Shown here: positions 16,542-43,837 of the stretch, piece by piece
How the letters are laid out: each line of letters opens with the position of its first letter
Position numbering within the stretch: the first letter of the stretch is position 1
Source: an uncultured Spirochaetota bacterium
GTDB taxonomy: Bacteria > Spirochaetota > Spirochaetia > Treponematales > Rectinemataceae
Assembly (NCBI GenBank): GCA_903821875.1
Contig: CAIJMU010000178.1
Coordinates: 1 to 52,042, forward strand
Reading direction: 5' to 3'
Length of the DNA: 52,042 nucleotides
The notes under the pieces: generated by a model
Databases searched by the model: none
What the model saw: the letters and a program-made list of their open reading frames with translations, nothing else
What the model was told of the DNA's origin: nothing
Translations under genes and position numbers: made by a program

Positions 16542-16583
16542 TGGGGAAGCAGGATCTTTTTCACTTTGTACAGCCCGTATCCC

Positions 16584-22727: not shown

Positions 22728-22859
22728 GGGTGGCATCGCAACCCTGCGATTCCCCGGATTATCTTCCCGGATTCACCTCAGGTTCACATTGCCCCAGTAT
22801 TCTCGATGTCGACGAGGGAAGGCCCGACCCGATGGGTTCCCTACGCGAGGAGCTTCAGA

Positions 22860-24833
22860 GTGGCTGCAATCGAAACGACAGTCCATGTCGATGGCATGAC
22901 CTGCGGAGCCTGCGAGCGACGCGTCGAAAAGGCCCTGATGGCTCTCGGAGGGGTAACATCGACCAGGGCCAGCCAGACCCGCGCCCGGGTCCTGGTCCAG
23001 CATGAAGACTCGGTTTCGCTGGCATCGCTCAAGGCGGCAGTCGAAAAAGCGGGGTATGCACCCCGCGACCGACCCAGCCGCGCCACAGCGATAGCCCTTG
23101 GCATCGGCCTCAGCCTGGCTGCCATCTATCTCATTGCCAACTCCTTCGGAGCCTTCAACAATTTCCCGATGGCCGAGAGCGGCATCGGCTATGGCATGCT
23201 CCTCGTCATCGGACTCCTGACCTCGGTGCACTGCGTAGCGATGTGCGGAGGGCTGGCCCTTTCGCAGAGCGTGAGGGGAAGGCCGATGGCTGAGGCCCGG
23301 GAGGGAGGCTTCCTGGCGAAGCTTTCGCCCGGCCTCCAGTACAATGGCGGGCGCGTGGTCGCCTACACCCTCGTCGGAGCGGCGGTCGGCGGACTCGGTT
23401 CGGCCATGGACTTTTCGTCCACTGCCCAGGGCGCCATCACTGCCCTCGCGGGACTCTTCATGCTCTGGCTCGGCCTCAAGATGATGGGCATCATCCCATC
23501 CCTCCCGCGCGGCACCCTCCCCCTGCCCGCGCCCCTCCGGCGGCTCGGTGACCGTCTGGCAGCCTTCGGCGCCGGCCGAGGCCCCTTCGCCGTCGGCATC
23601 CTCGGAGGGCTCATGCCCTGCGGCCCCCTCCAGACCATGCAGCTCTACGCCCTCGGAACGGGCTCGGCGGCAGCAGGAGCCCTATCCATGTTCTTGTTCT
23701 CAATTGGTACCGTCCCCCTCATGCTCGCCTTCGGAGCGACAGCAGCCCTCCTCCCCAGGAAGTTCATGCCCATGATGATCAAGGCCTCCTCGATACTCGT
23801 CCTCCTCCTCGGAACCCTTACCCTCGGCCGGGCCGCCGCCCTCGCCGGCGTGCAGCTTCCGTCCATGGGCGGGACCCCGATCGTCCTCCCCACCGGAAAT
23901 TCTTCGGTGTTCAAGGCCTCGCTCGAGCTACCCCAGGCTCCGGCCGCATCCGCCGGGGTTCCCGGCGGGCCCGCGGGCAGCGGCCTCGCCTTCGATGTCG
24001 CAGGCAATGCGATGCAGCCTGCGGTCGCCCAGATCAAGGACGGGATACAGACAGTAGTGACGATCTTCAATGCAAACAGCTACCAGCCCTTCTACGTACA
24101 GGCCGGCATCCCCGTCCGCTGGATAATCCGTATCAAGAAAGAAGACATAAATGGATGCAACCACAGTTTCGTGGTTCCCTCCTACGGCATCCGGCGGGAC
24201 CTGAAACCCGGCGACAATATCGTCGAGTTCACGCCCAAGGCCACTGGAGTCGTTCCCTATTCTTGCTGGATGGGCATGATCAGGAGCGGTTTCGGCGTCG
24301 TACCCGACCTCGGTGCGGTCGCCGGAAAGACCAACTCCAGCTACGATCCCGCCAGCGGTCCAGGCGCCCTGGCCATCCCCCGGAAGGTCGAGGCCGACAC
24401 CGGCCAGGCAATGGGCACGCCGGCTTCCTTCGAAGGTGGCAGGCTTCCCCTCGACACCATCGGGGTCGCCAGGCTGAAGGGCGGCATCCAGGTCGTGACG
24501 GTCAGGGTCGATGGCTCTGGCTACACACCGGCCGCCGTCGTCGTCCAGCGCGGCGTTAAGACGGTCATCCGCTTCGAGGCCTCCGCCCTCGATGGCTGCA
24601 ATTCCATCGTTTTCTTCCCTGAATACAACGGCACCCTCGACCTCTCCAAGGGCGAGTTCCAGACGCCTGAGATTCCGGCAGAGGGCGACTTCACCTTCCA
24701 GTGCGGCATGAACATGCTCCACGGCTATGTCAAGGCCGTCGATGACATCGCAAAGGTCGATCTCGCGGCCGTGCGCAGGGAGCTGGCGGACTACCGTGTG
24801 CCAGCTTCCGGCTGCTCCTGCTGCGGGAATTGA
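22860..24833 (+). CDS. HMA-TauE/SafE-cupredoxin fusion, copper handling membrane protein
   Basis: 657 aa from GTG 22860, chosen because GAGGAG (22847-22852) lies 7 bp upstream; an ATG at 22806 has no such site. Domains: heavy-metal-associated domain at about 4-68 with C15-x2-C18 (GMTCGAC); a TauE/SafE or DsbD-like six-helix module (about 75-340; [17 protein letters not shown] and [16 protein letters not shown], each with a helix-embedded Cys); then two exported cupredoxin-like domains. The first has NGCNHSF and later [12 protein letters not shown], a C/H...C...M set; the second has DGCNSIVFF and [12 protein letters not shown]. The C-terminus ends in a further Cys cluster (SGCSCCGN). It probably moves Cu+ or reductant across the membrane and binds copper outside. 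CopA follows after 7 bp. Confidence 0.88.
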
Positions 24834-24840
24834 GGACGAC

Positions 24841-27306
24841 ATGATCCAGGCAACACGACTCAGGATAGGCGGCATGACCTGCACGGCCTGCGCTGCGGCC
24901 TCCGAACGCGCAGTGCGCAGGCTTGTAGGCGTCGAGGAAGCCTCGGTGAATTTCTCGACCGAGAAGATGACCCTCCGCTTCGATGATGGAAAAGTCACAA
25001 TTAGCTCAATCAAGGCCGCCGTGGCGAAGGCGGGCTACGAGGCCAGCGACGACCGCGTCGAAAAAGAGCTTGTGATACCGGTCGGCGGCATGACCTGCGC
25101 CGCCTGTAGCCGTGCGGTGGAACGCGCAGTGGGCAGGCTTCCGGGCGTCGTCGCGGCTTCGGTCAACCTCGCCACGGAGAAGGCCACCATCCGATACGAT
25201 ACAGAGGCGCTCCGCATCTCGGAGATCAAGCAAGCCATCACAAAGGCAGGTTATACACCCCTTGCCATCGAAGACGGGACCTCCGATCCTGCCTCCCGGG
25301 CTGACGTCCACCGCGAGGGCAAGGCCAGGGAGATCCGCAGCATGTGGACCAGGCTGGCGGTTTCTGCGGCCTTCTCCGCCCCCCTCCTCTACCTGGCCAT
25401 GGGAGGCATGCTCGGATGGCCCTTGCCCGAAGCCCTCGACCCCATGGGCCATCCCCTGAGCTATGGACTCCTCGAGCTTCTCCTGGTGATCCCTGTCGTT
25501 ATCGCCGGGAACCGCTTCTACAGGGTCGGCCTCAAGACCCTCCTCCACGGCTCCCCGAACATGGACTCCCTCATCGCCATGGGCACCTCGGCCGCCATGG
25601 CCTACAGCCTCATGTCCCTGGTCCAGGTCGCCAGGGGAGACATGGGAGCCGTCGACCGTCTCTGGTTCGAGACCGTAGGTATAATCATAACACTGATCAT
25701 GCTCGGAAAGACCCTCGAAGCCGTCTCGAAGGGACGAACCTCCGATTCCATCAAGAAGCTCATGGGCCTCAGGCCAAAGACCGCAACAGTCGTACAGGAT
25801 GGCAAGGACCTCGAGCTGCCGGTCGAGGAAGTCGAAATAGGCGACATCCTCCGCGTGCGCCCGGGCCAGCGCATCCCCGTGGACGGCGAGGTCGTCGAGG
25901 GATACACTTCCATCGACGAGTCGATGCTCACAGGCGAGTCCATGCCCGTCGACAAGGCAGAAGGATCCGGGGTCATCGGCGCCTCGATCAACACAACTGG
26001 TTCGATACTTTTCCGGGCCACCAAGGTCGGCGCCGATACCGTGCTCGCCCGCATAATCAGGCTCGTCGAGGATGCGCAGGGCTCCAAGGCGCCGATCGCG
26101 GAACTCGCGGATACCGTGTCGGGCGTCTTTGTCCCCGTGGTCCTCGGCATCGCCCTCCTGGCCGCCCTGGTCTGGCTCCTGGCTGGACAGGACCTGCCCT
26201 TCGCGCTCACCGTCTTCGTCGCAGTACTGACAATCGCCTGCCCCTGCGCCCTCGGCCTGGCAACGCCGACAGCCATCATGGTCGGCACGGGACGCGGCGC
26301 GGAGCTGGGGGTCCTGGTCAAGTCCGGCGTCGCCCTGGAAACAGCCCACCGCATCGACACGATCGTGTTCGACAAGACCGGAACCATCACAGTCGGCAAA
26401 CCCTCGCTGACGGACCTGGTCCCCTCCTCCGGCTTCGGTGATGACGAGCTTCTGGGCCTTGCCGCGGCAGCAGAGCGGGGTTCCGAACATCCACTGGGTG
26501 CCGCCATAGTGGCCGCAGCCGAGGCGAGGGGCCTGGTCCTCCTTCAGGCTTCGGACTTTTCCGCACAGCCCGGGCACGGCATATCAGCTAACGTGGGTGG
26601 CCGCGCAGTCCTCTTGGGCAACGAGAGGCATCTTGCCGAAAAAGGCATAGCCGTCGATAGCGGCTCAGCCGACAGGCTCGCATCAGCCGGCAAGACTCCC
26701 ATGTTTGTCGCAGTCGACGGGCGCTACGCGGGTCTGGTCGCCGTGGCAGATGTGGTCAAGCCCTCGAGCGCCGCCGCCATCGCAAAGCTCCGCGCCATGG
26801 GCATCGAGGTGATCATGATCACCGGCGACTCCGCACGGACTGCAGCGTCCATAGCCCGCGAGGTAGGCATCGACCGGGTTCTCGCCGAAGTACTCCCCGG
26901 AGACAAGGCCGCGGAAGTCAGGAAGCTGCAGGCAGGGGGCCGGAAGGTTGCCATGGTCGGCGACGGCATCAACGACGCGCCAGCCCTCGCCCAGGCCGAC
27001 ATAGGCATTGCCATAGGGTCGGGCACCGATGTCGCCATGGAAAGCGCAGACATCGTCCTCATGCGGAGCGACCTCGGCGAGGTGCCGACAGCCCTGCAGC
27101 TTTCCCGGCGCGTCATGCGAAACATCAAGCAGAACCTCTTCTGGGCCTTCGGCTACAACATCCTCGGGATTCCCGTGGCTGCGGGCATCCTCTACGCCTT
27201 CGGCGGTCCCCTCCTCAATCCCATGTTCGCGGCTGCGGCCATGTCGCTCAGTTCGGTCTCCGTACTCACCAACGCGCTGAGACTCAGGCGTTTCAAACCG
27301 GCATAA
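24841..27306 (+). CDS. copA: Cu+-exporting P-type ATPase
   Basis: 821 aa from ATG 24841 (GAGGAC 4 bp upstream, overlapping the previous stop). Two N-terminal metal-binding domains with C14-x2-C17 and C86-x2-C89 (GMTCTAC, GMTCAAC). Eight membrane helices with the Cu+ signature C467-P-C469 ([11 protein letters not shown]). Actuator loop TGES at about 364; phosphorylation D511 in DKTGT; hinge [15 protein letters not shown]-terminal helix pair with [13 protein letters not shown] and [18 protein letters not shown] (M/S-rich copper signature). Exports Cu+ (and Ag+) from the cytosol; partners are the adjacent CopZ and the cupredoxin fusion. Confidence 0.97.
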
Positions 27307-30486: not shown

Positions 30487-31935
30487 TCAGCGCGGAGGCT
30501 TCCACCAGTCCGCCTTTGCCTGACCCGTAAGAAGCGTGCAGACCGCCTCTGTTTCAGGTGTCGCATCCTCCTTCCTTCCGCCCGCGCGAAGCCTGGCAAG
30601 CTCTGCCTTGAGGACTCCGTGGCTTTTCGGCGTTATGCGGAATCGGGTCGCCACGATGATGCCGGCAATGAGGAGCAGTGCTGGCGTCCCGATGAAGAAG
30701 GCGAAGAACCTCTGGAGCGTCTCCGGGGCCTGCACTGCGTTGGGAACGAAACCGATGCCCTGCAGCATGAAGCCGATCGCTGGCAGCGCGAAGAGGCCCT
30801 GGACAAGCTTGCGGAGGAGGGTCATTGCGCCGGCGTAGATTCCTGAACGCTGCTCGCCGGTGATGAGCTCATCGACATCGATGACAAAGGGCAGTATGGC
30901 GTAGGGCATGAGGACGCCGGCTGAGGTGCCCATTCCGATGACGGCGCAGATCAGGGCGAGCGACAAGGTCGACGACTGCGGACCGAGGCCCAGGGTGAGG
31001 AACATGCCCAGCACCCAGACAGCGAGTCCGATGGAATAGGAAAGGCCCTGGCTCTTGCGGTTGGCAATGAAGGAATAGACAGGCATCATGGCAAGCTGGA
31101 CGATCATCAGGGTACCCATGGCTATCGAATAGAGGCCGGGCTTGCCCAGCGAATAGGTCAGGTAATAGGTGAACAGGGCCATCAGGATGTCCATGGCCGT
31201 GTAGGCGCAGACATACATGCCGAAGTGGATCCTGAACGAGCGGTTGCGGAAGATCGTACCGAATTCCTTGAAGAGGTTGTCGCCCACCTCGGACTCCCTC
31301 CTGGCCACATTCTCCCAGGTGCTCCTATATACGATGACCCAGGGCAGGGCGAAGATGATGCCGAAGACAATGCCCATCACGAGGTGACCCTGGCCGGGGT
31401 CGCTGGGGTAGGCGTCGATGATCATCTTGGGGATGACGGCGGCGACGAGGGAGGAGAGCCCCGAAAACAAGAGGCGGGAAGTGGAAAGCCGGTTCCGGGT
31501 CTTCCAGTCCGAGCTCATCTCCGCGGGCAGGGCCGAGTAGGGGGTCATCACCATGGTGAGGGCCGCGTCGAGGAGGATGTAGGCAAAGAGATAATAGGCG
31601 AAAAGCAGGAATTGGCTGTCTGTCCGGATGGGCACCCAGAGGAGGGCAAAGGTGATCGCGATCGGGACAATGCCCCAGAGGAAGTAGACGCGGCGTCGTC
31701 CGGCCTTTGACTTTGTCCTATCACTGATGAAACCCATGAGGGGATCGGATATCCCGTCCCATACCTTGCCCACTCCGAACATGAGGCCGGCGAGCGCAGG
31801 CTTCATGCCCACCACTTCGGTGAGGAAAAACATGAACAGCATTCCCACGATCAGGAAGGCTCCTCCACCGTAGATGTCCCCGATGCCGAATCCTATGATG
31901 TTCCGGAGTTTGACCGGTCGCTCGACCTGTTCCAT
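30487..31935 (-). CDS. GPH-family glycoside:cation symporter
   Basis: 482 aa from ATG 31935 (AGGCAGGGA upstream). Twelve membrane helices of the MFS type, with glycoside-pentoside-hexuronide landmarks: GDIYGGGAFLIVGMLFMFFL in helix 1 and GVGKVWDGISDPLMGFISDR after helix 2. Relatives include MelB, xyloside and glucuronide symporters, and YihO/YihP that import sulfoquinovose and its glyceride. It is the last gene of the run that begins with the GntR-type regulator and sits 19 bp after the GH31 gene, so it likely imports that enzyme's glycoside substrate with Na+ or H+. It is a second uptake route beside the ABC importer of the same operon. Confidence 0.92.
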   Translation of the reverse strand: MEQVERPVKLRNIIGFGIGDIYGGGAFLIVGMLFMFFLTEVVGMKPALAGLMFGVGKVWDGISDPLMGFISDRTKSKAGRRRVYFLWGIVPIAITFALLWVPIRTDSQFLLFAYYLFAYILLDAALTMVMTPYSALPAEMSSDWKTRNRLSTSRLLFSGLSSLVAAVIPKMIIDAYPSDPGQGHLVMGIVFGIIFALPWVIVYRSTWENVARRESEVGDNLFKEFGTIFRNRSFRIHFGMYVCAYTAMDILMALFTYYLTYSLGKPGLYSIAMGTLMIVQLAMMPVYSFIANRKSQGLSYSIGLAVWVLGMFLTLGLGPQSSTLSLALICAVIGMGTSAGVLMPYAILPFVIDVDELITGEQRSGIYAGAMTLLRKLVQGLFALPAIGFMLQGIGFVPNAVQAPETLQRFFAFFIGTPALLLIAGIIVATRFRITPKSHGVLKAELARLRAGGRKEDATPETEAVCTLLTGQAKADWWKPPR

Positions 31936-31954: not shown

Positions 31955-34024
31955 TTATCGATGCGTGCCGTCCGAGGCGGCCGCCCGTACTCGCTCGAAT
32001 AGCTCGCCATGGAGTGAATCTTCCCGCCAGAACACCGGGGGCTCGCCGATCGGCGCCTCAACCGTGGTCCTGCCAGCGCCCAGGCGCTGGCCCGTCCAGA
32101 GGTGGACCCAGCGGTCTTCAGGCAGGTCCACACGCCAGCTCCGCGCCCCCGCCCTGAGGACCGGGGCGACCAGGAGATCCCGTCCGTAGAGGTAGCTCGC
32201 CGGTCGGCCGCGTTGGGCGAAATCGTCAGGATAATGCAGGCTGGGCGAGCGGATGGGGGGCAACCCCGTCGCTGCGTATTCCGCTGCGACCGCGCGGTGG
32301 TAGTCTCCGAGGGCCGCGTACACCCCTGTCATCCGCGCGAAGTGAGCCAGGATGCCGGGGTCGGAGTCGAACTGGGCGTTGACCGGGGGATCGATTCCTT
32401 CATGGGTTCGCATGACCTGCGTGAAGGCCGCGAATTCAGCCGAGCGCAGGAGGAGTTCCCTGCTCCGCCGGATCCAGGCGACGGAGAGGAAACCGCCGAT
32501 ATCGAAGTGCCAGTTCCCCACCCCCGACATGCCGGCGGAGATGCCGGCCGAGAGGACAGAGGGCAGGCCTGCGTCGCGCATGAAATTGACCATCTGGTCG
32601 CCGGCCCAGAAAAGGGGAGCCTCTTTGGTCGAACCTGCCCAGCCGGAGCGGCTGAAGAAGACGGCGCGCTCCGAGGTCCCCGCCACGCCTGTCGCTGCAG
32701 CCGCTCCTGTATCCGCTCCCGCTTCCAGAGCCGCTTCTTCGATGGCCTCACGGTTGAGGCGGGCCCATTCCAGGGGGTAGCGGTTGTGGACCAGTGCAGG
32801 ATCCTCGCCGGAAAAGATCTGTCCGTCGGGTGGCAGGAATTCCCCGAAGTCCGACATCCAGCCATCGAGGCCGATGCCGATCATGTTATTTTTAATTATG
32901 CCCTTCATCCAGGTCCTGGTGCCGGGGTTCGAAAGGTCGAGGAGGGACACCGGGAAGGTAGTGGTCGTGGAAACCCAGTCGGATCCGGATTTGTCCTTCA
33001 CAAGGAAGCCCCTGGCCGATGCTTCGGCCCACTGTGGCGCATCGGTCGCGAGGAATGGATTGTTGTAGCCCAGGAAGCGGATGCCGCGTGCGTGCAGTCT
33101 CCTTATGAGTCCAGGAAGGTCGGGGTAGAGTTTCCTGTCGTAGTCCCAGTTCCAGAACAGCTGCTTGCCATAGGGGGTCATCCTGATGCCCTGCCAGTCC
33201 TGGCACCACAGTGCTGCGACCTTGATGCCCGTAGCCAGGGCCCGCTCGAGCTTTTCCTCGACGACGGCACTACCCCCCTGGACGCCCAGCCACAGGCCCC
33301 CATAGGCCCAGTCCGGCAGGCCCGGCTGCCGCCCCAGGAGGGCGGTCATGCCACCCATCGTCGCAATGCTGTCCTTTTCGAAGCCCAGCACGAGGGCTGC
33401 GGGAACCTCATGGAAGGAAAGCTCGCAGCGGTCCTTGCGACGGAAATCGAAGACCGAGTAGGCTGTCGTCTCGGCAAGGCAGTAGAGATTGCCCGAGGTC
33501 ACGAAGGAAGGCTGGGGAAAATAGGTATGCTCGGTCGTACCCCCGCGTCCCGAGTGGATATTGGCGATAAACTTGACATAATTAGGACCACGTCCTACCC
33601 CGGACTCGGAAACCCACAGCGGGAAGCGCCGTCCACGGAGGTCGGCGCCGGAAAACTGCTCGCCGCAGCCATGGATCGCCTCACCTGGCACGAGGGCGAG
33701 CCTGATCGATACTCTGTTGCACCCTGCCTTAAGCGCACGGGGAACGATGCGAAGGCGCTCCTCGTCGATGGTGAACTCCAGGGTGGCGAGACCGGGAAAC
33801 TCCAGGAGGGCGCGGTCCGGCGCCTCGACGGCGACACGCAGGGATGATGCCTCGCTCCAATCATGCCTGCGCTCGCTGCGGAGCCAGTACATGCCGTGCC
33901 TCATCTCGATTCTTCCGCTTCCCAGCCCCAGGCCCATGCAGGGCCTGCTTGGACTATGTCGGAGGATGACGCGCCCCTTGAACGACAGGGTCAGGCCATC
34001 GCCTTCGCGATCAACGACGATCAT
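31955..34024 (-). CDS. GH31 alpha-glycosidase, sulfoquinovosidase (YihQ)-like with an altered binding site
   Basis: 689 aa from ATG 34024 (AAGGGGG 6 bp upstream); an ATG at 34048 lacks a ribosome-binding site. It aligns by eye with E. coli YihQ throughout: HGCGEQFSGADLRGRRFPLW, the nucleophile D392 in GWMSDFGEFLP, acid/base D476 in FWAGDQ, then MRTHEG and LPEDRWVHLWTG. YihQ binds the sulfonate with Q262, Q288, R301 and W304. Here the matching residues are Q249 (LGVQGG), Q275 (WCQDW), Q288 (GKQLFW) and W291: the Arg is Gln. No signal peptide, so it works in the cytosol on an imported glycoside. It is certainly a retaining alpha-glycosidase of this clade; substrate (sulfoquinovoside or another 6-substituted glucoside) is open. 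Confidence 0.9.
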   Translation of the reverse strand: MIVVDREGDGLTLSFKGRVILRHSPSRPCMGLGLGSGRIEMRHGMYWLRSERRHDWSEASSLRVAVEAPDRALLEFPGLATLEFTIDEERLRIVPRALKAGCNRVSIRLALVPGEAIHGCGEQFSGADLRGRRFPLWVSESGVGRGPNYVKFIANIHSGRGGTTEHTYFPQPSFVTSGNLYCLAETTAYSVFDFRRKDRCELSFHEVPAALVLGFEKDSIATMGGMTALLGRQPGLPDWAYGGLWLGVQGGSAVVEEKLERALATGIKVAALWCQDWQGIRMTPYGKQLFWNWDYDRKLYPDLPGLIRRLHARGIRFLGYNNPFLATDAPQWAEASARGFLVKDKSGSDWVSTTTTFPVSLLDLSNPGTRTWMKGIIKNNMIGIGLDGWMSDFGEFLPPDGQIFSGEDPALVHNRYPLEWARLNREAIEEAALEAGADTGAAAATGVAGTSERAVFFSRSGWAGSTKEAPLFWAGDQMVNFMRDAGLPSVLSAGISAGMSGVGNWHFDIGGFLSVAWIRRSRELLLRSAEFAAFTQVMRTHEGIDPPVNAQFDSDPGILAHFARMTGVYAALGDYHRAVAAEYAATGLPPIRSPSLHYPDDFAQRGRPASYLYGRDLLVAPVLRAGARSWRVDLPEDRWVHLWTGQRLGAGRTTVEAPIGEPPVFWREDSLHGELFERVRAAASDGTHR

Positions 34025-34171
34025 CTCCATCCCCCTTCGCAACGCCATCCACGGGCAGACTACCCCCAGTGGTCCTTGCCGTCAACAACACCAGCAGGGG
34101 AAGGATAGACGAAACGTGGAAGCTAATTCAAAGGCAGGAAGCTTTCATGGTACTGCTTTGGTCTGCCCCCC

Positions 34172-35158
34172 TCAGTAAAGGAAGCTCCCCTCCTGCGTGA
34201 GGGCACGGGGCTTTTTCCCGCTCGTGAGATTGATCGACAACTCCCACTCCTGTACCGACCGGGCTTTCAGCACGCTGCCCATTCCCCAAAGTCTGGAAAG
34301 GTCGATGCGATCCATGGCCGCGCTCGCAGGTTCGGGGGCTATGTTGTATTGGCCGTTCCAGCCAGAAGCGTTCAGCCACATTCCGAGGAAGGGCACCCTG
34401 TCCTTAGGCCAGGCCATTCCGATGGTCAGTCCAGAGCCCGGATCATGCAACATGCACCAGCCCTCGGGAACCCTTTCCGCAAACCAGTATTTCTGGTAGC
34501 ACGAAGCTTCCCTGGCTGGCATGCGGTCCAGGCGAAGAGCCGTGCACCCCCGTGGCTCCGCTTCCGGAAAGGCGAGGCTTTCACCGTAGTTCGGCAAGTT
34601 TGCGCCGGGGACGGCATTGATGATCCTGTCCATCCCGGAGGGGACCACGAATTCCATGCCCTCCGTCGCGTTGAAGAGGGGATGGGCAGCCCAGATGTAA
34701 TCGAGGGGATAGTCGGAGCCGCTGCTTAGCCGATAGCGCGACCGGAGACAGGAACCCTCGAGCACGACTTCCTTTTCAAGGAGGTAGGGAAAGCGCAGGC
34801 CTGCCACGCGCATCTTCAGCGAAGACCCAACTATGTCATGCTGCCATGGAAGGCTCCAGACCTCCCCGTGATCCGGGACCTCGACCCCGGACCACGGCGC
34901 CGTTTCGTACCGGCATGTCGAGATGCTGGGAAACATCTCGTCCATGCCCGAGAATTCGGCCTTGCCGTAGGCGTCGTCGTACGATGTCCTGCGATAGGAT
35001 GGCTCCGGGTTCTGCCACAGGGTCTCGGCGCCCGTGGGCTTGTAGACAAAGGAAGCGAGCTTGGCTCCCCACTGGGGGAGGATGACGGCGCGCGCCACTT
35101 CGTTCTCGAGCACCACCGCGTCCTGGTCCTTGTATTTTCCCATCTCTGGACCCGCCAT
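34172..35158 (-). CDS. Aldose 1-epimerase-like protein (mutarotase fold)
   Basis: 328 aa from ATG 35158 with a strong AAGGAGGTGG upstream. It is a galactose-mutarotase-like beta-sandwich: ARAVILPQWGAKLASFVYKP and TLWQNP at the start, GMDEMFPSISTCRY, YIWAAHPLFNATEG carrying the conserved His of the HP[YL]F motif, and GMWLNASGWNGQYNIAPEPA with the Glu that acts as general base. Position right before the GH31 gene mirrors YihR beside YihQ; it probably interconverts the anomers of the released sugar. A DUF4432-like lyase-associated epimerase is an alternative. Confidence 0.85.
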   Translation of the reverse strand: MAGPEMGKYKDQDAVVLENEVARAVILPQWGAKLASFVYKPTGAETLWQNPEPSYRRTSYDDAYGKAEFSGMDEMFPSISTCRYETAPWSGVEVPDHGEVWSLPWQHDIVGSSLKMRVAGLRFPYLLEKEVVLEGSCLRSRYRLSSGSDYPLDYIWAAHPLFNATEGMEFVVPSGMDRIINAVPGANLPNYGESLAFPEAEPRGCTALRLDRMPAREASCYQKYWFAERVPEGWCMLHDPGSGLTIGMAWPKDRVPFLGMWLNASGWNGQYNIAPEPASAAMDRIDLSRLWGMGSVLKARSVQEWELSINLTSGKKPRALTQEGSFLY

Positions 35159-35198
35159 TCCACCACCTCCTTCAGCCGCCTTCCGGCAGCCACCTATA

Positions 35199-36236
35199 TC
35201 ACAATTGTGCCTTTGCAGTATCGATGAACGCAAGCATGTTCTCGAGCGCTACGTCGCCTTCGACGTCGTGGGCTGGAGAGAATATGTAGCCTCCGTCATG
35301 GCCCGCATCCAGCAGGCGTCGGGACTCGGTCCTCACCTCTTGCGGGCTTCCGTAGGGCAGAAGCCTCTGCGTTGACAGCCCTCCGTGGAAGGCCAACCTT
35401 CCCCGATGCTGGCGCATGAGGGCGTGGACGTCCATGACCTCAGGCTGGAAGGGATTGAAGCAATTAAGACCTATTGAAACCAGGTCGTCGAAGAGTTCGT
35501 CGACATCGCCGCAGGAATGGATCATCACCATCTTGCCCGCTTCGCGGACGACCGAGTACATCCTGCGCAGTTGCGGTAAAATGTACTCCCGCCATTTTTC
35601 GGGACCCATCTGCAGGCCGATCTGGGCACCCCAGTCATCGCCGAAGTAGACTGCGTCGATGTCGTAACCGAGGGCCTTCCTCACCTGCGAGATGTTGTAG
35701 TCGGCTATTGTCCCAAGGAGCTCCTTGACGAAGCCCGGGTCGTCATAGAAGTCCATCATGAGGTTTTCCATGCCACGGAGGGTCCAGGCCCTCTCCCAGA
35801 GCGAAAAGCCTATCTGGAAGACCCTGAAGCGATCTCCGTAGCGGAGAAGCTTACCCGGGATGTCGCGGAAAAAACGCTCGTCCAGGGGGTCGGGAAAACG
35901 GTAGCCCCCGAGGCTCGGCTTGTCGAGCACGCAACCGACGACCATGCCGATGTCCTTGTCGACAGAGCGATCCCACTCGACACCGAAGACATCTCGCAGG
36001 CGGTCTTTCCCCACTTCCTCGAAAAAGCCGATGTCGCTTCCGAGCTTGAGGAGATGGTTGCCCACAGCCTCGTTCAGGTCCTCAGCATCGCGCTTCGGAC
36101 TTCCGGCCGGGACCGACTCGGGAAAGTAGTGCCCTTCGAGTTTTTCCCTGGCCTCCTGCGTAAAGCCGAAGGACCAGGGAACGTAGGGCGGTCTTTGATG
36201 GGAGAGCGCGAGCCTGACCACATCCCTTCGTGTCAT
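35199..36236 (-). CDS. URO-D superfamily protein (methyltransferase-like), copy 1
   Basis: 345 aa from ATG 36236; an alternative ATG at 36272 overlaps the upstream stop region and lacks a better ribosome-binding site. TIM-barrel of the uroporphyrinogen decarboxylase/MtaA superfamily. It has FGDDWGAQ (199-206), the metal-type H240-x-C242 (MIHSCGD), [24 protein letters not shown], and a C-terminal [13 protein letters not shown] with H323 where corrinoid methyltransferases of this family carry Cys. It is not HemE: the N-terminal substrate arginine motifs are absent and there are no haem genes around. Reaction unknown. It lies 40 bp before the epimerase gene, in the same operon. Confidence 0.85.
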
Positions 36237-36265
36237 TTCATCCCACCCCTCGGAATCCCACTGCC

Positions 36266-37381
36266 TCAACATCCATAGTATTCATCCATCGCTTCGTACA
36301 TGGCGATTGCGTTCTCGGGAGGCGTTCCGAACTGGATGTTGTGCGCGGGACCGGGAATAAAGCCCCCCCCGGCACCGAGCGAATCGAGGACGTATTTGAC
36401 CTCGTCCTTGACCTGCTGGACGGTGGACCTCGGAAGGACCTGCTGGACGTCGATGCCGCCGGAAAAACAGAGGTCCTTCCCGAACTCGGCCTTGATCTCG
36501 TGGGGCACCATGCCCTTGGCGCTGGTCTGGACCGGATTCATTATATCTACACCCAATTCGGCGAATTCCCTGTAGAGCGCCCGCGCTGCCCCGCAGCTGT
36601 GGAACTCGACCTTGAGGCCGTAGGAATGGGCCAGGTCTGTGAAGCGACGGTACTGGGCAGCATAGAAATTCCGGAAGACCTCGGGGCTTGCCAGCAGGCC
36701 CTCCTGCATGCCCCAGTCGTCGGCTATATGGATTGCGACGACATTTTTCCCTATGTAGGGCTTGACCGTCTCGAGGAGGCGCGTGAAGTACTCGTAGCCG
36801 AAATCCGCGATGTTCCTGATGATGGCCTCGCCTACCTTGGGGTTCAGGGAAAAATCGGTGAGGACGTTCTCCATCCCCCGGACTTCCCAGGAGAACCAGC
36901 CAATGGCCAGATAGCCGACCATGAAGGGATAGTCCGGATAGGCCTTGATCCCCGGCAGGACACTCTCGTAGTCGAACCATTCGGCCTTGGGCCAGGGGTG
37001 GCGGTCGACCTCCGCCACGGTCTCTGCATCGGCCAGGGGATAACCGATCGTTTCCGTGTAGGACCCCCCACCATTGCGATAGTACATGAGCCTCTGCCTC
37101 GAACCCCACATGTTCTCGAAGCTGCCATCGTCGTATTTCTTTGGTTCGGGACCGATGTACTCGGGTTCCCAGGACTTCCCTTCCATGCCCGAACCCTGGA
37201 AGCGGTAGTCGATGTCGAATTTCCCGTAGAGGACCTCGTCCAGTCCCATTCCAAGCTGGTCGGTCAGGCTTTTCGTGAACTCTCCCGTCCCGAGGTAGAA
37301 CCTCGGAAGCCGGTCATAGCTCCTGCGGGCCATGGCCGCCTTCCACCGCTCGAGGTGGGTCATCTTCGCTTTGACTTCCAT
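36266..37381 (-). CDS. URO-D superfamily protein (methyltransferase-like), copy 2
   Basis: 371 aa. Same fold as the neighbours with [10 protein letters not shown] (218-227), H261-x-C263 (FHSCGA), [13 protein letters not shown], a [10 protein letters not shown] loop (308-317) and [17 protein letters not shown] with H347. The DDWG plus HxC plus late His pattern is the same as in copy 1 and the late part is very like the divergent copy at 43936 (NPVQ, GGxDxQQxLP). An acidic, aromatic N-terminal 100 residues probably shape a substrate pocket. It ends with Cys. The stop is 30 bp from the next gene. Substrate not predictable from sequence. Confidence 0.85.
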
Positions 37382-37397
37382 CGTTATCCACTCCCCT

Positions 37398-38570
37398 TTA
37401 GTACGCTGCGAGCCGCATGGCGGTCTTCACGTAGGCTTCGACGTTCTTTTCAGGAGTGCCGTACTCGAGGAAGTCGGCCGGCTGCATGATGAACCTGCCG
37501 CCGGGCTTGCCTGCAAGCATCACCGCCTCGGTGGCCTTGATGACATCGTCCACGCTGCCGTTCTGGAGCACGTTCACCTGGTCGATGCCGGCAAGCATCG
37601 TATAGGCACCGCCCGAGCGCCGCTTGGCTTCGGCAAGGTTCGCGTCTCCGAGCGGTGCCGGGGAGAAGGGTTCAACTATCTTGACCCCGAGATCCTTGTA
37701 GGACTCCACGAGGTTCATGATCTGACCGCAGTTGTGGTACATCGCCGGCGTACCGTTCTTCTGGACGAAATCGATGTACTTCTTCTCGTAGGGCAGGATG
37801 TACTGGTCGTAGGAGGGCTTTCCGAGGAAGCCGCCGGGGACATTGCCGCCGACGCAATGCACGTCGACGCCCGCGTCGTCGAGGGCCTGGGCGTAGGGCA
37901 GGCTCCGCTCGTAGGCGAAGGTGATGAGCTCGTGGTAGTACTCGGGCTCGGTGAGGAACATCGAGTAAAGCTGGGTGTGCTCGGTGATCAGCGAGCAGTT
38001 GTTGAAGGGCCCGTGGGGGCTCCAGGTGCCGACGATGCCGTCGTCGCCGACCGCCTTCTTCATCCGCTGCACGCGGGCCCTGACCATCGCGGGCCAGGTT
38101 GCCGGCATCTTGGGCTCGTACTTCCGTGCGATCTCGAGGTCCTTGGGGCCGTTGATGGGGTGCCGGGTGCAGGCGTACATGAAAGTGCCCTTGCGGTTCT
38201 CATTGATCGAGAAGTCCTGGGTCAGCGTGCCGTCCGGCGTCCGGATCGTCGCCCGCTCGATCATCGTGTTGCCATTCTCGACCTTCTCCATGCTGACCTG
38301 CCAGGTGTCGGTGCTCTGCGACACGTCCAGTCCGCCGTAGATGATGTTGAGAGGGTCGTTGATGCCATACAGGAGCCGCACGAAGACGTCCAAGCCGAAC
38401 TTCTTCTGGGCCTCGAGCACCTTCATGTGGAGGGTGTCGAAGTCCCAGGGATCAACCTCGGGATAGAGCTGGTTCAGGAAGTGGCCCTGGTCGGCGATGA
38501 AGAGGGTCACGGGCACGCGGTCGGGCATCTCTCCCTTGAAGACCTTCAGGAAACGTTCTCTCGATGTCAT
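37398..38570 (-). CDS. URO-D superfamily protein (methyltransferase-like), most divergent copy
   Basis: 390 aa from ATG 38570 with AAGGAG upstream. It shares the barrel and the H279-x-C281 site (MYHNCGQ) but differs from its neighbours: the DDWG loop is replaced by VGGNVPGG (240-247), the NPVQ segment by VEPFSPAPLGD, and the late His by Asp (QPADFLEYGTPEKN, D366). An ISxxLTEHT-like region and RTPDGTLTQDF in the N-half are its own. This looks like a different enzyme from copies 1 and 2 rather than a duplicate, perhaps acting on another intermediate. It is first of the three after a 106-bp gap from the ABC permease gene. Confidence 0.85.
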   Translation of the reverse strand: MTSRERFLKVFKGEMPDRVPVTLFIADQGHFLNQLYPEVDPWDFDTLHMKVLEAQKKFGLDVFVRLLYGINDPLNIIYGGLDVSQSTDTWQVSMEKVENGNTMIERATIRTPDGTLTQDFSINENRKGTFMYACTRHPINGPKDLEIARKYEPKMPATWPAMVRARVQRMKKAVGDDGIVGTWSPHGPFNNCSLITEHTQLYSMFLTEPEYYHELITFAYERSLPYAQALDDAGVDVHCVGGNVPGGFLGKPSYDQYILPYEKKYIDFVQKNGTPAMYHNCGQIMNLVESYKDLGVKIVEPFSPAPLGDANLAEAKRRSGGAYTMLAGIDQVNVLQNGSVDDVIKATEAVMLAGKPGGRFIMQPADFLEYGTPEKNVEAYVKTAMRLAAY

Positions 38571-38676: not shown

Positions 38677-39639
38677 TCAGCGCCGCCTCCTCGTGTCGAG
38701 GTAGACTGCGAGTATCAGTACTATGCCGTTCGCCACCCATTGGTAGTAGGACGGCATGTTGATCATGATCAGACCCGACTTGAGGACCCCGATGATCGCG
38801 ACGCCGATCAGGGCTCCGAAGAGGTTGCCCACTCCTCCGGTGATGGCGATTCCTCCGAGTACGCAGGCGCCGATGGAGTTGAGTGGATACATGTTGCCGG
38901 CCGTGGTCTGGGCGGAACCGAGCCTCGACGCCAGGAGGCAGCCACCGAAGGCAGCCAGGGCGCCGATTATGACGAACACAAGTATGCGGATCCTGTCGAC
39001 GTTGATGCCCGAAAGCCGGGCCGCCTCGGGGTTGCCTCCGATGCTGTAGACATAGCGGCCGAAGACCGTAAAGCGGAGGATCAGGTAGAAGACTACATAC
39101 AGGAAAACCAGGATGAGGATGGGAAGCGGCACACCGAAAACATGGGTCGTTCCGAGAAAGCGGAACTCGGGCGTGTTGACCCCTACGGCAAAGCCCCTGC
39201 TCGCCAGGAAGGTCCCTCCCTCGAAGATGGTCATCATCCCGAGCGTAGTGATCAGGGCGTTCACCTTGGCCTTGGCGATGAGGAGGCCGTTCAGCAATCC
39301 GATGAAGGCGCCGATGGCTATGCCAAGGACGAGGACGAGGGGATACATGCCGTAGGCCCTGGTCAGCTGTGCCACGACAATGCCGCTGAAGCCCGCTATG
39401 GATCCGACCGAGAGATCGAAGGAACCGGTCAGGAGGGCGAGGCTCTGGCCGATGCACACAATACCTATCACAGAGATCGTGAGGCCGATCGCGGAAAAAT
39501 TGCCCGCGTTGAGGAAGTGGGGGGACAGGAGACTGAAGACAGCCACCAGGCCAATCAGGACCAGCAGCATCCGGACCTGGTTGAGGACCTTCGTGAACAT
39601 GGACTTCGAGTCCTTCACCGTTTCGATCATAGGTAACAT
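38677..39639 (-). CDS. Ribose-type ABC transporter permease
   Basis: 320 aa, about ten membrane helices, of the RbsC/XylH/YtfT class. The signature LLTGSFDLSVGSIAGFSGIV (near 68-87) and INVDRIRILVFVIIGALAAF (near 205) are typical. It starts 15 bp after the ATPase gene. Forms a homodimeric channel with the double-ATPase below and the binding protein at 41267. The family moves pentoses, hexoses, autoinducer-2 or polyols; the substrate cannot be read from sequence. Confidence 0.94.
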   Translation of the reverse strand: MLPMIETVKDSKSMFTKVLNQVRMLLVLIGLVAVFSLLSPHFLNAGNFSAIGLTISVIGIVCIGQSLALLTGSFDLSVGSIAGFSGIVVAQLTRAYGMYPLVLVLGIAIGAFIGLLNGLLIAKAKVNALITTLGMMTIFEGGTFLASRGFAVGVNTPEFRFLGTTHVFGVPLPILILVFLYVVFYLILRFTVFGRYVYSIGGNPEAARLSGINVDRIRILVFVIIGALAAFGGCLLASRLGSAQTTAGNMYPLNSIGACVLGGIAITGGVGNLFGALIGVAIIGVLKSGLIMINMPSYYQWVANGIVLILAVYLDTRRRR

Positions 39640-39654
39640 CCTTGCATGGCTGGT

Positions 39655-41151
39655 TTAGCCCAGGGCGAAGCGAACGACTTCCGCCTCGTTGAGACCCCGG
39701 TTCTCCGTGAATTCATGGACGATCTTTCCGTCGCGGAAGACCAGGATCCGATCGCAGACATTGAGCACCTCGGGCAGTTCGGAGGATACCAGGATGATGC
39801 CCTTGCCCTCATCCGACAGTTCCCTGAGGAGCCGGTAGATGTCCGCCTTCGCTCCGACATCGATACCGTGTGTGGGTTCGTCGAAAATGATGACATCGCT
39901 ACGGGTCGCGAGCCACTTCGCTATGGATACCTTCTGCTGGTTGCCGCCCGAGAGATCCGATACCTGGGTGTCCTCATCGGGGGTCTTGAGGTTGAGGGCT
40001 TTGATGTATTGGCGTGCGATCGCCCTTTCCTTCCTGAGGTCCAGGAAACCGCCCCGCTTCCGCGCCAGTTTCCCGACAAAAGGCAGTGTTATGTTGTTCT
40101 TTACCGGCGCTATGAGTATGACGCCCTGGGCAATGCGGTTTTCCGGCACCAGACCCAGGCCCATCCGTACCGCATGGAAGGGCGATTTTATCTTCACGGA
40201 TCGGCCCTTGAGCAAGACCTCTCCACCATGCAAGGGGCTGTCGCCGAAGATGGCCATCATCGTTTCGGTGCGGCCAGATCCCACCATGCCGAAGCAGCCG
40301 ACGATCTCGCCCTTGTGGACGGAGAAGCTGACCCCGTGTACCCCCGTAGCCTTGAGATCCCTCACCTCGAGCGCGACCTCATCGGTCTTGCCCCGCTTCC
40401 TGCTGTCCTCGCCGTAGAGGTTGAGGTCCCTGCCGACCATGAGGGACACGATGTCATCCTTGGTGACCGCCGCGATGTCCCTCGTACCCATCACCCTGCC
40501 GTCCTTCAGCACCGTGATGCGGTCTGCTATTTCGAAGAGCTCGTCGAGGCGATGGCTCACGTAGATGATCGAGATGCCCTTGGCCTTGAGCTTCCTTATG
40601 AGCTCGAAAAGCCTGCGCGTCTCGTCTTCGGAGAGGGCCGCCGTGGGTTCGTCGAAGGCTATGATCCTGGTGTCGTAGGTCAGGGCCTTGAGGATCTCGA
40701 CCAGCTGGCGATAGCCCGCCCCGAGTTTCCCCACGGGCTCCCGGACCAGGGCTTCCATTCCGAAGATCGAGGCGGTCTCCTCGGCCTTGCGGTAGAGTTC
40801 CTTCCAATTGACAATTCCGTTTTTCGCGGAGGGGTAGCCGCCCATGTAGATGTTCTCGGCGACCGTCAGCATCGGTGCCAGTTCGATTATCTGGGGAACC
40901 ATGCCGATGCCGGCCTTGCGGGCCTCGATGGTGGTCCGGAAGTCCACGTTCGCGCCATTGTAGGCATTGCTGCCCGAATCCTTGTGGTATACCCCACTCA
41001 GGATCTTGATGTAGGTCGATTTGCCGGCACCGTTCTCGCCCACGAGGGCGTGGACTTCGCCCGATCGCAGCTCGAAGCCCATGTCGGTCAGGGCGTGCAC
41101 CCCGCCAAAGCTCTTGTTTATCCCTTGGGATTTCAGGACTAGATCTTGCAT
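39655..41151 (-). CDS. Ribose-type ABC transporter double ATPase
   Basis: 498 aa with two nucleotide-binding domains. First: Walker A GENGAGKST, signature LGAGYRQLVEI, Walker B IIAFDEPTAAL. Second: degenerate Walker A GMVGSGRTE, signature LSGGNQQKV, Walker B VIIFDEPTHGIDVG. This is the RbsA/MglA/XylG layout, with the typical weak second P-loop. It is cotranscribed with permease and binding protein genes; a hairpin at 41226-41253 separates it from the binding-protein gene. Confidence 0.95.
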   Translation of the reverse strand: MQDLVLKSQGINKSFGGVHALTDMGFELRSGEVHALVGENGAGKSTYIKILSGVYHKDSGSNAYNGANVDFRTTIEARKAGIGMVPQIIELAPMLTVAENIYMGGYPSAKNGIVNWKELYRKAEETASIFGMEALVREPVGKLGAGYRQLVEILKALTYDTRIIAFDEPTAALSEDETRRLFELIRKLKAKGISIIYVSHRLDELFEIADRITVLKDGRVMGTRDIAAVTKDDIVSLMVGRDLNLYGEDSRKRGKTDEVALEVRDLKATGVHGVSFSVHKGEIVGCFGMVGSGRTETMMAIFGDSPLHGGEVLLKGRSVKIKSPFHAVRMGLGLVPENRIAQGVILIAPVKNNITLPFVGKLARKRGGFLDLRKERAIARQYIKALNLKTPDEDTQVSDLSGGNQQKVSIAKWLATRSDVIIFDEPTHGIDVGAKADIYRLLRELSDEGKGIILVSSELPEVLNVCDRILVFRDGKIVHEFTENRGLNEAEVVRFALG

Positions 41152-41225
41152 ATCACCCGCTTCGCGTAATTCTGGTTTTCACGGCATCGATCCGGGACCG
41201 GAGCACTCGTGGCATCCGGTCGCCG

Positions 41226-41253
41226 GCGGACCGGAGCCTAGGCCCCGGTCCGC
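41226..41253. terminator. Hairpin between binding-protein and ATPase genes
   Basis: Perfect arms GCGGACCGG (41226-41234) and CCGGTCCGC (41245-41253) around GCC-TA-GGC, 13 bp after the binding-protein stop. Such a stem in the first intercistronic gap of ABC sugar operons usually lowers downstream transcription or protects the upstream message, so the binding protein is made in excess. Confidence 0.55.
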
Positions 41254-41266
41254 ATTCGCCTTGTCC

Positions 41267-42253
41267 TCAGTCCCAGGTGTACTTGGTCCAGGTGTCGAAG
41301 CCTACGATGGCTCCCGACGTGGGGATGAAGCCCTTAATGGGCGTCTTCTTGGTGATGAACTCGTAGAGGGCGCGAACGGCTTCGCTGCCATGTGTCTCGG
41401 GCTGGAGCTTGATGGTGATGTAGTTCTTGTTGCCGTTACGGAACTCGTCGGAGGAGAGGCTGTAGCCACCAAGGCCGCAGGAGATCACGTTGTCCATGTT
41501 GAAGCCAGCTTCTTCGAGGGCGCGAAGGGGGGCGACGCCTGAGTCGTCGTTAAGGCCGGTGATGATCCAGTGCGTGACCTCGGGGTGCGAGTGGATGATG
41601 GCCTGGGAGACAGGGAGGACCTGCTCGAACATGCCGGTCTCGTTGTCCTGGGCGACGATGTCGGCCTTCGTGAGGAAGCCGCCGGAGTTCTTGATGATCC
41701 CGTCCTGGTATCCGACGGTCCGCTCGTGGAGGAAGGACTTGAAGGAGACGTCGACGCTCATGATCTTGACGACATTGCCCTTCTTGAAGAAGCCGCGCTT
41801 CGTGGCGAGCTCCGCCATGGCCTTGCCGCCGGCAAAGCAGGAACCGTAGGTGTCGATGCCGACGTTCGGGACGTCCTTGCCGGCGCTGTCCTTCACGTTG
41901 TCATTGATGGTGACGTAGGGGATCTTCGCTGCCTTGAGCTTGTCGGTGACCGCCGGTCCCATCGCCACGTCGGTGATGCAGAATGCTACGCCGGTCGCCT
42001 TCTGGGCAATGGCGCTGTCGATGCCCTGCATGAAGGCCTCGTCGTCGAGGTTGGCGTCGATGCCGATATAGGTGATTCCGTACTTCTTGGCCAATTCCAT
42101 GGCACCCTTCTGCTCGGCCTGGAACCAGGGGTGGGTCAGCATCTTGCACACGTAGACGATCTTGAGATCCTTGCCCTTGGGCTGTGCGGACAGGGGCGCG
42201 GCAACCATCACCGCAACCGCAACCGCCATGAGAACGACGAATGCTTTCCTCAT
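41267..42253 (-). CDS. Periplasmic sugar-binding protein of the ribose/galactose type
   Basis: 328 aa from ATG 42253 with GGAGGG 5 bp upstream. Signal peptide MRKAFVVLMAVAVAVMVAAP ending at SAQ. Mature protein is a type I periplasmic binding fold (Peripla_BP_4): IVYVCKMLTHPWFQAEQKGA at the first strand, GIDSAIAQKATGVAFC, IPYVTINDNV, and WIITGLNDDSGVAPLRALEE where the Asn-Asp pair usually contacts sugar hydroxyls. It delivers ligand to the ABC permease of the operon. A free Cys pair exists but no lipobox. Confidence 0.94.
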   Translation of the reverse strand: MRKAFVVLMAVAVAVMVAAPLSAQPKGKDLKIVYVCKMLTHPWFQAEQKGAMELAKKYGITYIGIDANLDDEAFMQGIDSAIAQKATGVAFCITDVAMGPAVTDKLKAAKIPYVTINDNVKDSAGKDVPNVGIDTYGSCFAGGKAMAELATKRGFFKKGNVVKIMSVDVSFKSFLHERTVGYQDGIIKNSGGFLTKADIVAQDNETGMFEQVLPVSQAIIHSHPEVTHWIITGLNDDSGVAPLRALEEAGFNMDNVISCGLGGYSLSSDEFRNGNKNYITIKLQPETHGSEAVRALYEFITKKTPIKGFIPTSGAIVGFDTWTKYTWD

Positions 42254-42348
42254 AACTCCCTCCATACTTCCGAATCCGAAATGCTGTCGGCCACCAGGGG
42301 CCGATGCCGGCCAGTCACGGCCCATCGCTCTTCAAACCTTGTCGAAAA

Positions 42349-43764
42349 TCAACCGTAATACAACATGTTCAGGTAATATTCCTTTTCATTCAGTTCCTTT
42401 TCGATGTCCGCGTCCTCAAAGAGGATTTTCTTGACCGCATCCATGGCGAGCACCATCGCCTTCTCGAACATCGCGTTCTGGGCATTTATGCACTTTGCGT
42501 TGGCCAGCTGCCTCTTGAAGGCCTGGAAGTACTCGCTGTCATAGGGCGCCGCGCAGAGTCGGTTGCGGTTGCTGGGAAGATGGCCAGTCGAGGAAAAGTA
42601 GAAGTCGCTCAGTTCAGGATCATTCGTTATCGCGTCAATGAAGATCCCGGCATGGTACTTGTTCCGGCTCTGGGAGCAGATAGCCAGGGCGTGGTTGTAG
42701 TTCCAGGTGACCGAAGGGCGTCCCTTCCAGGTGGGATTCAGGATCACCATGAAATTCTTCTCGAAAGGCTCGCCGGTCAGCTCCTCGAGGATATACTTGA
42801 TCCAGGCTCCGTCCGTGAGAAAGGCGATCTCGTTGCGGGCGAAGCGCTCGCGGAGCGCGTAGAGGTCGTCCGCGCAGGTCCGCGTATCCTTGAGGAACCT
42901 GCGTACCCAGGCGAAGCCTTCTATGTTTTCGGGGCAATTGAACACAACACGGCCGGCATCGTCCACGAATTCCCCGCCGAAGGCCAGGAGAAAGGAATAC
43001 AGGGACAGGAGGAAGTCGGTTTCGTCGTTGCGCACGTTGATGCCATAGGCGAAGCGCCTGGAATCCGCGCAGCAGTTGCCGATCTTCCGGCATATGTCCG
43101 AGAACTCGCCGAGGCTGAGCGGTGAGCTGCCGATCTCGATGCCAGCATCGCGAAGGACATTCCTGTTCGCTATCAGGGAGAGGGGCGAAAGTCCCCAGGC
43201 TACAGAGTAGATCTTTCCGTTCCAGGTGCCGCCCTGAAGGTCCTTGTCGGTGTACCTCGACGCAAGGTTCTCCGCGCTCAGGAAGCCCTCGACCTGGGCG
43301 AGGGCGCCCATCGAAGCGAAGTAGGCTGTCCAGGGGGACACGATGTGGGCAATGTCAGGCGCGTTTCCCCCGCTGATGAGCCGGAGCAGGTCCTCCCTGG
43401 TATGGGGGAAGGTCGTCGGGATGATCTTGATGAGGATGTTCGGATGCGTGGCCTCGAAGCGATCGACCAATTCGAGCAGCAATGCCTGTCCCCGTGGCGC
43501 TTCGCCGATCCAGCTCAGAAAGGTAAGTTCTGTCTTTCTTTCGGCCATGAAGGTGCCCTTGCCCTGCTTCTTGGAGAGGACTCCATCGGCGACCAGGAGG
43601 GTGATGGCCTGGCGGATAGTGGAAAGGCTCGTGCCATAGGTCTTGGCCAGGTTTTGTTCGGTTGGTATGGCCATTCCCGGTCCATATTTTTCATCTACGA
43701 TTTTTTTGAGGATGAGATCCTTTACCTGGAGATAGAGGGGGGCATAACGCACCATATCGTCCAT
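42349..43764 (-). CDS. GntR-type DNA-binding domain fused to an extracellular-solute-binding-protein fold
   Basis: 471 aa from ATG 43764 with GGAGGG 4 bp upstream. Residues about 8-75 are a GntR winged helix: PLYLQVKDLILKKIV, IPTEQNLAKTYGTSLSTIRQ, LVADGVLSKKQGKGTFMA. The remainder (about 80-471) resembles ABC solute-binding proteins of the SBP_bac_1/MalE type: ELVDRFEATHPNILIKIIP, APDIAHIVSPWTAYFASMGA, TWNGKIYSVAWGLSPLSLIANR, and AFLTDGAWIKYILEEL. It has no signal peptide, so this binding fold works in the cytosol as the effector domain. First gene of the minus-strand operon, facing the divergent URO-D gene; it most likely binds the inverted repeat at 43784-43815 and responds to the imported sugar. 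Confidence 0.9.
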   Translation of the reverse strand: MDDMVRYAPLYLQVKDLILKKIVDEKYGPGMAIPTEQNLAKTYGTSLSTIRQAITLLVADGVLSKKQGKGTFMAERKTELTFLSWIGEAPRGQALLLELVDRFEATHPNILIKIIPTTFPHTREDLLRLISGGNAPDIAHIVSPWTAYFASMGALAQVEGFLSAENLASRYTDKDLQGGTWNGKIYSVAWGLSPLSLIANRNVLRDAGIEIGSSPLSLGEFSDICRKIGNCCADSRRFAYGINVRNDETDFLLSLYSFLLAFGGEFVDDAGRVVFNCPENIEGFAWVRRFLKDTRTCADDLYALRERFARNEIAFLTDGAWIKYILEELTGEPFEKNFMVILNPTWKGRPSVTWNYNHALAICSQSRNKYHAGIFIDAITNDPELSDFYFSSTGHLPSNRNRLCAAPYDSEYFQAFKRQLANAKCINAQNAMFEKAMVLAMDAVKKILFEDADIEKELNEKEYYLNMLYYG

Positions 43765-43783
43765 ACAGCCCTCCTTATATATT

Positions 43784-43815
43784 GCGTCAACAGTCATCCG
43801 AATGACTGTTGACGC
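43784..43815. promoter_or_regulatory. Perfect 14-bp inverted repeat, predicted operator
   Basis: GCGTCAACAGTCAT (43784-43797) and ATGACTGTTGACGC (43802-43815) around 4 bp (CCGA). It holds the -35 hexamer of the plus promoter and abuts the predicted start of the minus promoter. The likely binder is the GntR-type protein encoded 20 bp away, which could shut both units with one site. Confidence 0.75.
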
Positions 43816-43837
43816 TCCGTGAATCCTATAGTAATAT
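43809..43837 (+). promoter_or_regulatory. Promoter of the divergent URO-D gene
   Basis: TTGACG (43809-43814), 17-bp spacer, TAATAT (43832-43837). The -35 lies inside the right arm of the inverted repeat, so a bound repressor would block polymerase. The start would be near 43844, about 90 bp before the ATG. Confidence 0.6.

Follow-up and report, generated by a model that had tools for sequence, protein, structure and literature searches.

The window, by which we mean the whole stretch of 52,042 nucleotides that was analysed, comes from an uncultured Spirochaetota bacterium of the family Rectinemataceae and carries a GH31 alpha-glycosidase gene within a string of genes that all lie on the minus strand:

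30487 to 31935, minus strand: GPH-family cation:glycoside symporter, starting 19 bp past the GH31 stop
31955 to 34024, minus strand: YihQ-family GH31 alpha-glycosidase, 689 aa when read from the preferred start (the reading frame opens at 34048)
34172 to 35233, minus strand: aldose-1-epimerase-like protein (weak match, below the Pfam cut-off), upstream of GH31
35199 to 38570, minus strand: three URO-D/MtaA-like proteins (35199-36272, 36266-37381 and 37398-38570)
38677 to 42325, minus strand: ribose-type ABC importer (permease, double ATPase and substrate-binding protein)
42349 to 43854, minus strand: fusion of a GntR DNA-binding domain with a solute-binding domain of extracellular type (SBP_bac_8)

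The GntR-SBP_bac_8 fusion is an unusual architecture, and it is possible that this protein senses a sugar directly for the gene string. A further URO-D-family match lies at 43876-45204. Elsewhere in the window (22806-27306), a sulfite-exporter-like/cupredoxin-type protein precedes a P-type metal ATPase that has two metal-binding domains, a pair that reads as probable copper handling.

The full GH31 open reading frame occupies 31955-34048 on the minus strand and encodes 697 aa. The earlier note on this DNA had placed the start at 34024, and this choice is borne out: it is preferable to 34048 because homologues begin at the position of Met9 of the longer frame and because a good ribosome-binding site, GAAGGGGG, lies just upstream. 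Residue numbers here count from 34024, so that numbers based on the full frame are 8 higher. The assignment to YihQ-like GH31 enzymes also holds. The best PDB match is YihQ (5aed), with a full-length alignment and E=3.9e-168, and the NCBIfam model of the YihQ subfamily (NF007746) scores 728.5 bits against a cut-off of 553 across residues 7-689 of the 697-aa frame, which excludes a chance match; the runner-up model, of the alpha-xylosidase (PRK10658) type, scores 173 bits. The protein keeps the insertion that marks YihQ-type enzymes and precedes the WNW segment (QDWxGxRxT..GK..xWNW), unlike GH31 enzymes of the YicI/MalA type, and it is nested among YihQ-family sequences in a tree of 102 proteins that contains only members of this family. 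By sequence it belongs to the YihQ subfamily of GH31, and filing it as a sulfoquinovosidase would be unwarranted without an assay.

Alignment to YihQ places the following residues:

33161 to 33163, minus strand: Gln288 codon (CAG), counterpart of YihQ Arg301
32957 to 32959, minus strand: Thr356 codon, counterpart of YihQ Glu369, the companion residue of Arg301
32849 to 32851, minus strand: Asp392, predicted catalytic nucleophile by alignment to YihQ D405
32597 to 32599, minus strand: Asp476, predicted catalytic acid/base by alignment to YihQ D472
32489 to 32491, minus strand: Phe512 codon (TTC), counterpart of YihQ Tyr508

The residue map previously drawn by eye proved correct: Q249, Q275 and W291 correspond to YihQ Q262, Q288 and W304, the catalytic pair is kept, and YihQ R301 is indeed replaced by Gln288. 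That map had overlooked a second change on the sulfonate side, from Y508 to F512 (motif HFDIGGF). In YihQ, R301, W304 and Y508 are the residues that we take to grip the sulfonate, and the window protein keeps one of the three (Gln288, Trp291, Phe512). Three other GH31 paralogues of related spirochaetes (L215-L217, with HDIGGF, HDVPGF and SDIGGF) also have Phe at the 508 position, and F512 is therefore the ordinary GH31 state, part of the [HS]D[IV]xGF motif of the YicI/MalA type. YihQ itself is nearly inactive on alpha-glucosides owing to its sulfonate-binding residues (PMC5902678).

We collected homologues from named genome contigs and from two overlapping genome samples, one drawn from the phylum (393 genomes) and the other from the class (395 genomes). 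This collection is mostly Spirochaetota, Bacillota and Enterobacterales; because it is skewed and was assembled from sequences that resemble the window protein, its frequencies differ from those of the whole family. In the tree of 102 sequences, the Gln301 forms group within the Arg forms as a single large lineage made up mainly of spirochaetes (SH-aLRT 99), and position 301 changes at least five times, including reversions to Arg. Glu is present at YihQ position 369 in 69 of 78 Arg301 forms and in 0 of 54 Gln301 forms, most of which have Thr. Treating Arg301 and Glu369 as a pair with many independent co-changes would overstate the case, since the tree traces the change from Arg to Gln mainly to a single node. 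As reconstructed, the linkage is essentially a single historical event, and the reversions to Arg did not regain Glu. The replacement of Arg301 by Gln thus appears to be more than a bare loss of charge, given that its Glu369 partner is absent from the Gln forms. If the two side chains are in contact, the Gln/Thr swap would keep the local net charge, which undercuts any argument built on a neutral Gln.

We scored gene context at loci of at least 10 kb, counting those with at least two sulfoglycolysis markers. Such loci comprised 58 of the 65 that encode enzymes with Arg301 and Tyr508, 20 of 29 with Gln/Tyr and 2 of 11 with Gln/Phe. Several Gln301 neighbourhoods contain a split transketolase (SqwG/H type), an RpiB-like isomerase (SqwI type) and an ADP-forming CoA ligase pair (SqwKL type), with DUF4867 and TauE or DASS transporters as further neighbours. 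One neighbour matches the sulfoquinovose isomerase model NF048012 and an acylating sulfoacetaldehyde dehydrogenase match lies near Gln301 genes, both below the model cut-offs. This gene set corresponds to the sulfo-transketolase pathway described for spirochaetes and other anaerobes (PMC12890257). Gln301 enzymes are also found within sulfo-transaldolase clusters, and the members of the lineage that lie in sulfoglycolysis clusters span spirochaetes, Thermotogales, clostridia and others.

The complete, single-contig genome G130 has a Gln form as its sole YihQ-family protein, inside a sulfo-transketolase cluster; G343, G374, G453, G476, G433, G377 and G425 have one match each above the family cut-off. 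Among sequence pairs on separate tree paths, we found no association of Gln versus Arg at 301 with sulfoglycolysis context. Because of these clusters, the single family member of G130 and this lack of association, the Gln301 enzymes in sulfoglycolysis clusters are probably working sulfoquinovosidases. The earlier note had argued that a neutral Gln at this position would by itself predict weaker sulfoquinovose binding or another substrate. The clusters, G130, the independent pairs and the Glu369 companion leave that argument unsupported, and on the first three of these grounds we rejected the Arg-to-Gln change alone as a specificity switch.

The counts for Gln/Phe against Gln/Tyr loci show a trend only, and we did not retain Tyr508-to-Phe as a real switch: the independent pairs are too few, and the association of Phe508 with context is not significant once relatedness is corrected for. 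Two Gln/Phe enzymes outside the window clade, at L036 and L171, lie close to sulfoglycolysis genes.

The candidate for a new sugar specificity looks like only a four-member side branch of the family, and not the loss of Arg, which is common in enzymes that are likely to be working. In the 102-sequence tree, the window protein forms a clade (SH-aLRT 100) with homologues at L113 (genome G357), L158 (genome G530) and L033 (a Spirochaetales MAG). Across this clade Y285, Q288, N321, V359, F507, F512, S528 and I544 replace YihQ F298, R301, I334, G372, S503, Y508, W524 and N540, respectively. The window codons of three of these residues, and of a clade-specific basic residue, are as follows:

32504 to 32506, minus strand: Phe507 codon, counterpart of YihQ Ser503, clade-typical
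32441 to 32443, minus strand: Ser528 codon, counterpart of YihQ Trp524
32393 to 32395, minus strand: Ile544 codon, counterpart of YihQ Asn540, beside the RTHEG motif
33545 to 33547, minus strand: Arg160 codon, clade-specific basic residue in the GRGG loop (YihQ Ala173)

Y285, V359 and S528 are absent or almost absent among the 128 other aligned sequences, of which 99% keep Trp524 and 94% keep Asn540. N321 also occurs in the sister pair L060/L048, Phe at the Ser503 position in the divergent relatives L040 and L023, and Ile at the Asn540 position in the Lokiarchaeota relatives L040 and L043. Phe507, Ser528 and Ile544 never occur together in any sampled SQ-cluster enzyme. Sulfoglycolysis clusters surround the genes of the nearest sister of the clade, L060/L048 (SH-aLRT 92, not starred). 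Because S503 and Y508 share a motif and N540 sits three residues past H537 (R-x-H motif), the active site of the clade enzymes is likely to have been remodelled. The clade also has K151 and R160, which are present in almost no relative, and E165 and H205 are likewise clade features; as basic residues, K151 and R160 could supply a new anion site.

Several relatives outside the clade also depart from the YihQ pattern. The Lokiarchaeota enzymes L040 and L043 combine Arg301, Phe508 and Ile540 beside SQ-isomerase-like genes, a Phe/Tyr507-Phe512-Ile544 pattern that resembles that of the clade. In L121 (G322) and L096 (Lokiarchaeota) the pocket residues are altered further, with ERRWD and IERWE instead of QQRWY. 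The acid/base Asp aligns to Val in L023 (G342:C9:195040-197031), where several pocket residues differ, perhaps reflecting an inactive enzyme or an alignment error. Two Gln/Phe homologues in a Bacillota MAG (L038:10004-12013 and 16389-18398) flank ABC sugar transporter genes, with no sulfoglycolysis markers nearby.

The gene context of the clade has features of its own. We found no sulfoglycolysis markers near the GH31 gene in the window, L113, L158 or L033 (the L033 locus being only 9 kb). GPH symporters about 60% identical adjoin the GH31 gene in all three of the other clade members, and symporters related to that of the window occur in the SQ clusters L129, L039 and L060. L113, L158 and L033 share a third gene, encoding a GH38/GH57-like protein of 733-738 aa with no Pfam match:

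L113, 10708 to 12924, minus strand: GH38/GH57-like protein
L158, 10388 to 12589, minus strand: GH38/GH57-like protein
L033, 158 to 2359, plus strand: GH38/GH57-like protein

The window genome (G000) has a homologue elsewhere, at C16:57576-59933 (L185:9588-11957, plus strand). An AlphaFold model of this protein built with 10 sequences reached a mean pLDDT of 77.6 and a pTM of 0.82 (a 3-sequence version had a pLDDT of 33). Foldseek matched the model to Bl_Man38A (E=3e-17), and VIA-align gave Z=24.5 over 465 residues at an rmsd of 13.7 against a GH57 glucanotransferase and Z of about 21 over about 315 residues at an rmsd of 3 against a GH57 amylopullulanase. In L206, L207, L208 and L210 the same protein is paired with a GPH symporter although GH31 is absent. 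These arrangements suggest a glycoside-use cassette. With their predicted fold and lack of a Pfam match, these proteins of 730-790 aa, which neighbour a GPH symporter in several spirochaetes, are possibly an undescribed glycoside hydrolase family.

The window genome carries a near-complete sulfo-transketolase cluster on another contig (C187:40614-56807), with DUF4867, a split transketolase, SqwI-, SqwD- and SqwKL-type genes and a DASS exporter; no sulfoquinovose isomerase was detected in it with the seeds used. Its YihQ homologue is of the Arg301/Tyr508 type, and the window enzyme is therefore an additional paralogue. In G357, too, a transketolase cluster includes an Arg-type enzyme (L130), and G530 has a second YihQ-family member.

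That the pathway is present elsewhere in the genome favours the main rival to a change of specificity, namely that the window enzyme has remained a sulfoquinovosidase but prefers a different aglycone or depends on a different route of uptake, such that the symporter imports a sulfoquinovoside and the C187 cluster degrades the released sulfoquinovose. The Gln301 enzyme of G130, the Gln/Phe forms of L036 and L171 and the related symporters in SQ clusters fit this explanation, as does the retention of Q249, Q275 and W291 together with new basic residues. However, the C187 cluster already has its own Arg-type enzyme, the window, L113 and L158 have no pathway linkage, and the Ser528, Phe507 and Ile544 combination sets the clade apart from the sampled SQ-cluster enzymes. 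We consider continued sulfoquinovosidase function a serious but rather unlikely alternative.

The genes upstream of GH31 bring to mind the catabolism of O-methylated sugars. Here the clade would descend from sulfoquinovosidases and have been adapted to a C6 substituent that is uncharged or hydrophobic: the enzyme would free, for example, 6-O-methyl-glucose (or 6-deoxy glucose), the three co-linear URO-D/MtaA-like proteins would carry out demethylation via a corrinoid, and the string as a whole would be an anaerobic methyl-sugar salvage operon. The genes do form a same-strand string that includes a sugar ABC importer, with URO-D overlaps of 7 and 35 bp, and the pocket gains Phe and Ile. The genome has 38 URO-D-family (MtaA-like) matches, several of which adjoin ribose-type sugar ABC transporters (e.g., on contig C176), yet this same abundance makes a chance neighbourhood likely. 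Between the epimerase-like gene and GH31 there is a gap of about 120-150 bp, and URO-D genes were found beside GH31 in no other locus examined. For this last reason we rejected them as part of a conserved GH31 cassette, and together with the 38 matches it makes a joint role speculative. We regard methyl-sugar salvage as highly improbable.

Relaxed selection, leaving a weak or decaying enzyme, would account for altered pocket positions that are otherwise conserved and for an insertion of about 17-21 residues after the EAIEEA segment, absent from aligned relatives. The changes are nevertheless common to four proteins down to about 52% identity, and every catalytic residue is kept. Decay therefore seems very unlikely to us.

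Our preferred reading, to which we assign a rough probability of 0.5, is that the window GH31 is a YihQ paralogue shifted to another alpha-glycoside, perhaps one with a neutral C6 group. By parsimony, the change from Arg301 to Gln would have occurred at the base of the Gln301 lineage, with the loss of Glu369, and many members of the lineage would probably have remained sulfoquinovosidases. The window clade would then have replaced Tyr508, Ser503, Trp524 and Asn540 and left sulfoglycolysis clusters, with sulfoquinovose being handled by the separate Arg-type enzyme of the genome. A small alpha-glycoside is probably taken up by the neighbouring GPH symporter. The window enzyme would cleave it by double displacement using D392 and D476, as a retaining enzyme, to release a glucose-type sugar that probably has a neutral C6 group. 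Evidence against this reading comes from the Gln/Phe enzymes L036 and L171 near sulfoglycolysis genes, the similar Lokiarchaeota enzymes, the sister pair L060/L048, the non-significant Phe508 trend and the anion site that K151 and R160 could supply. The new specificity proposed in the earlier note is thus plausible for the four-member clade, given Y508F, the clade-specific changes, the non-sulfoglycolytic context and the separate Arg-type enzyme; it does not follow from the loss of Arg.

Annotation at the family level would label the window enzyme a sulfoquinovosidase despite the absence of two of the three sulfonate contacts. Conversely, at least one published survey built its sulfoquinovosidase profile from GH31 hits pre-screened by a motif of YihQ signature residues (PMC8397734), and if that motif demands R301, the Gln301 lineage would be missed. 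The occurrence of Arg-type and remodelled Gln-type paralogues in single genomes makes the determinants of C6 specificity in this family directly testable.

The window enzyme shares with E. coli YihQ (PDB 5aed, 5oht) full-length homology, the catalytic Asp pair, counterparts of Q262, Q288 and W304 and the family insertion. Relative to YihQ it carries the changes R301Q, Y508F, E369T, S503F, W524S and N540I, and it has no sulfoglycolysis neighbours. E. rectale SftG (PDB 6pnr) and the A. tumefaciens SQase (5ohs/5ohy) belong to the same subfamily by sequence; their kinetics and structures are known, and the sulfonate-binding residues are called highly conserved in SftG (PMC11968277), unlike the window enzyme, which lacks the conserved set. 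An unrelated NAD-dependent family offers a published precedent, in which sequence groups with one altered sulfonate-site residue occur in distinct gene clusters, although the altered residue there binds via its backbone. Also related are the Gln301 homologues of sulfo-transketolase and sulfo-transaldolase clusters (L115, L163, L067, L060 and others), which have Gln301, a residue other than Glu at 369 (Thr or another) and the Q249/Q275/W291 set, as in the window enzyme. In contrast to the window enzyme, however, these homologues retain Tyr508, Ser503, Trp524 and Asn540.
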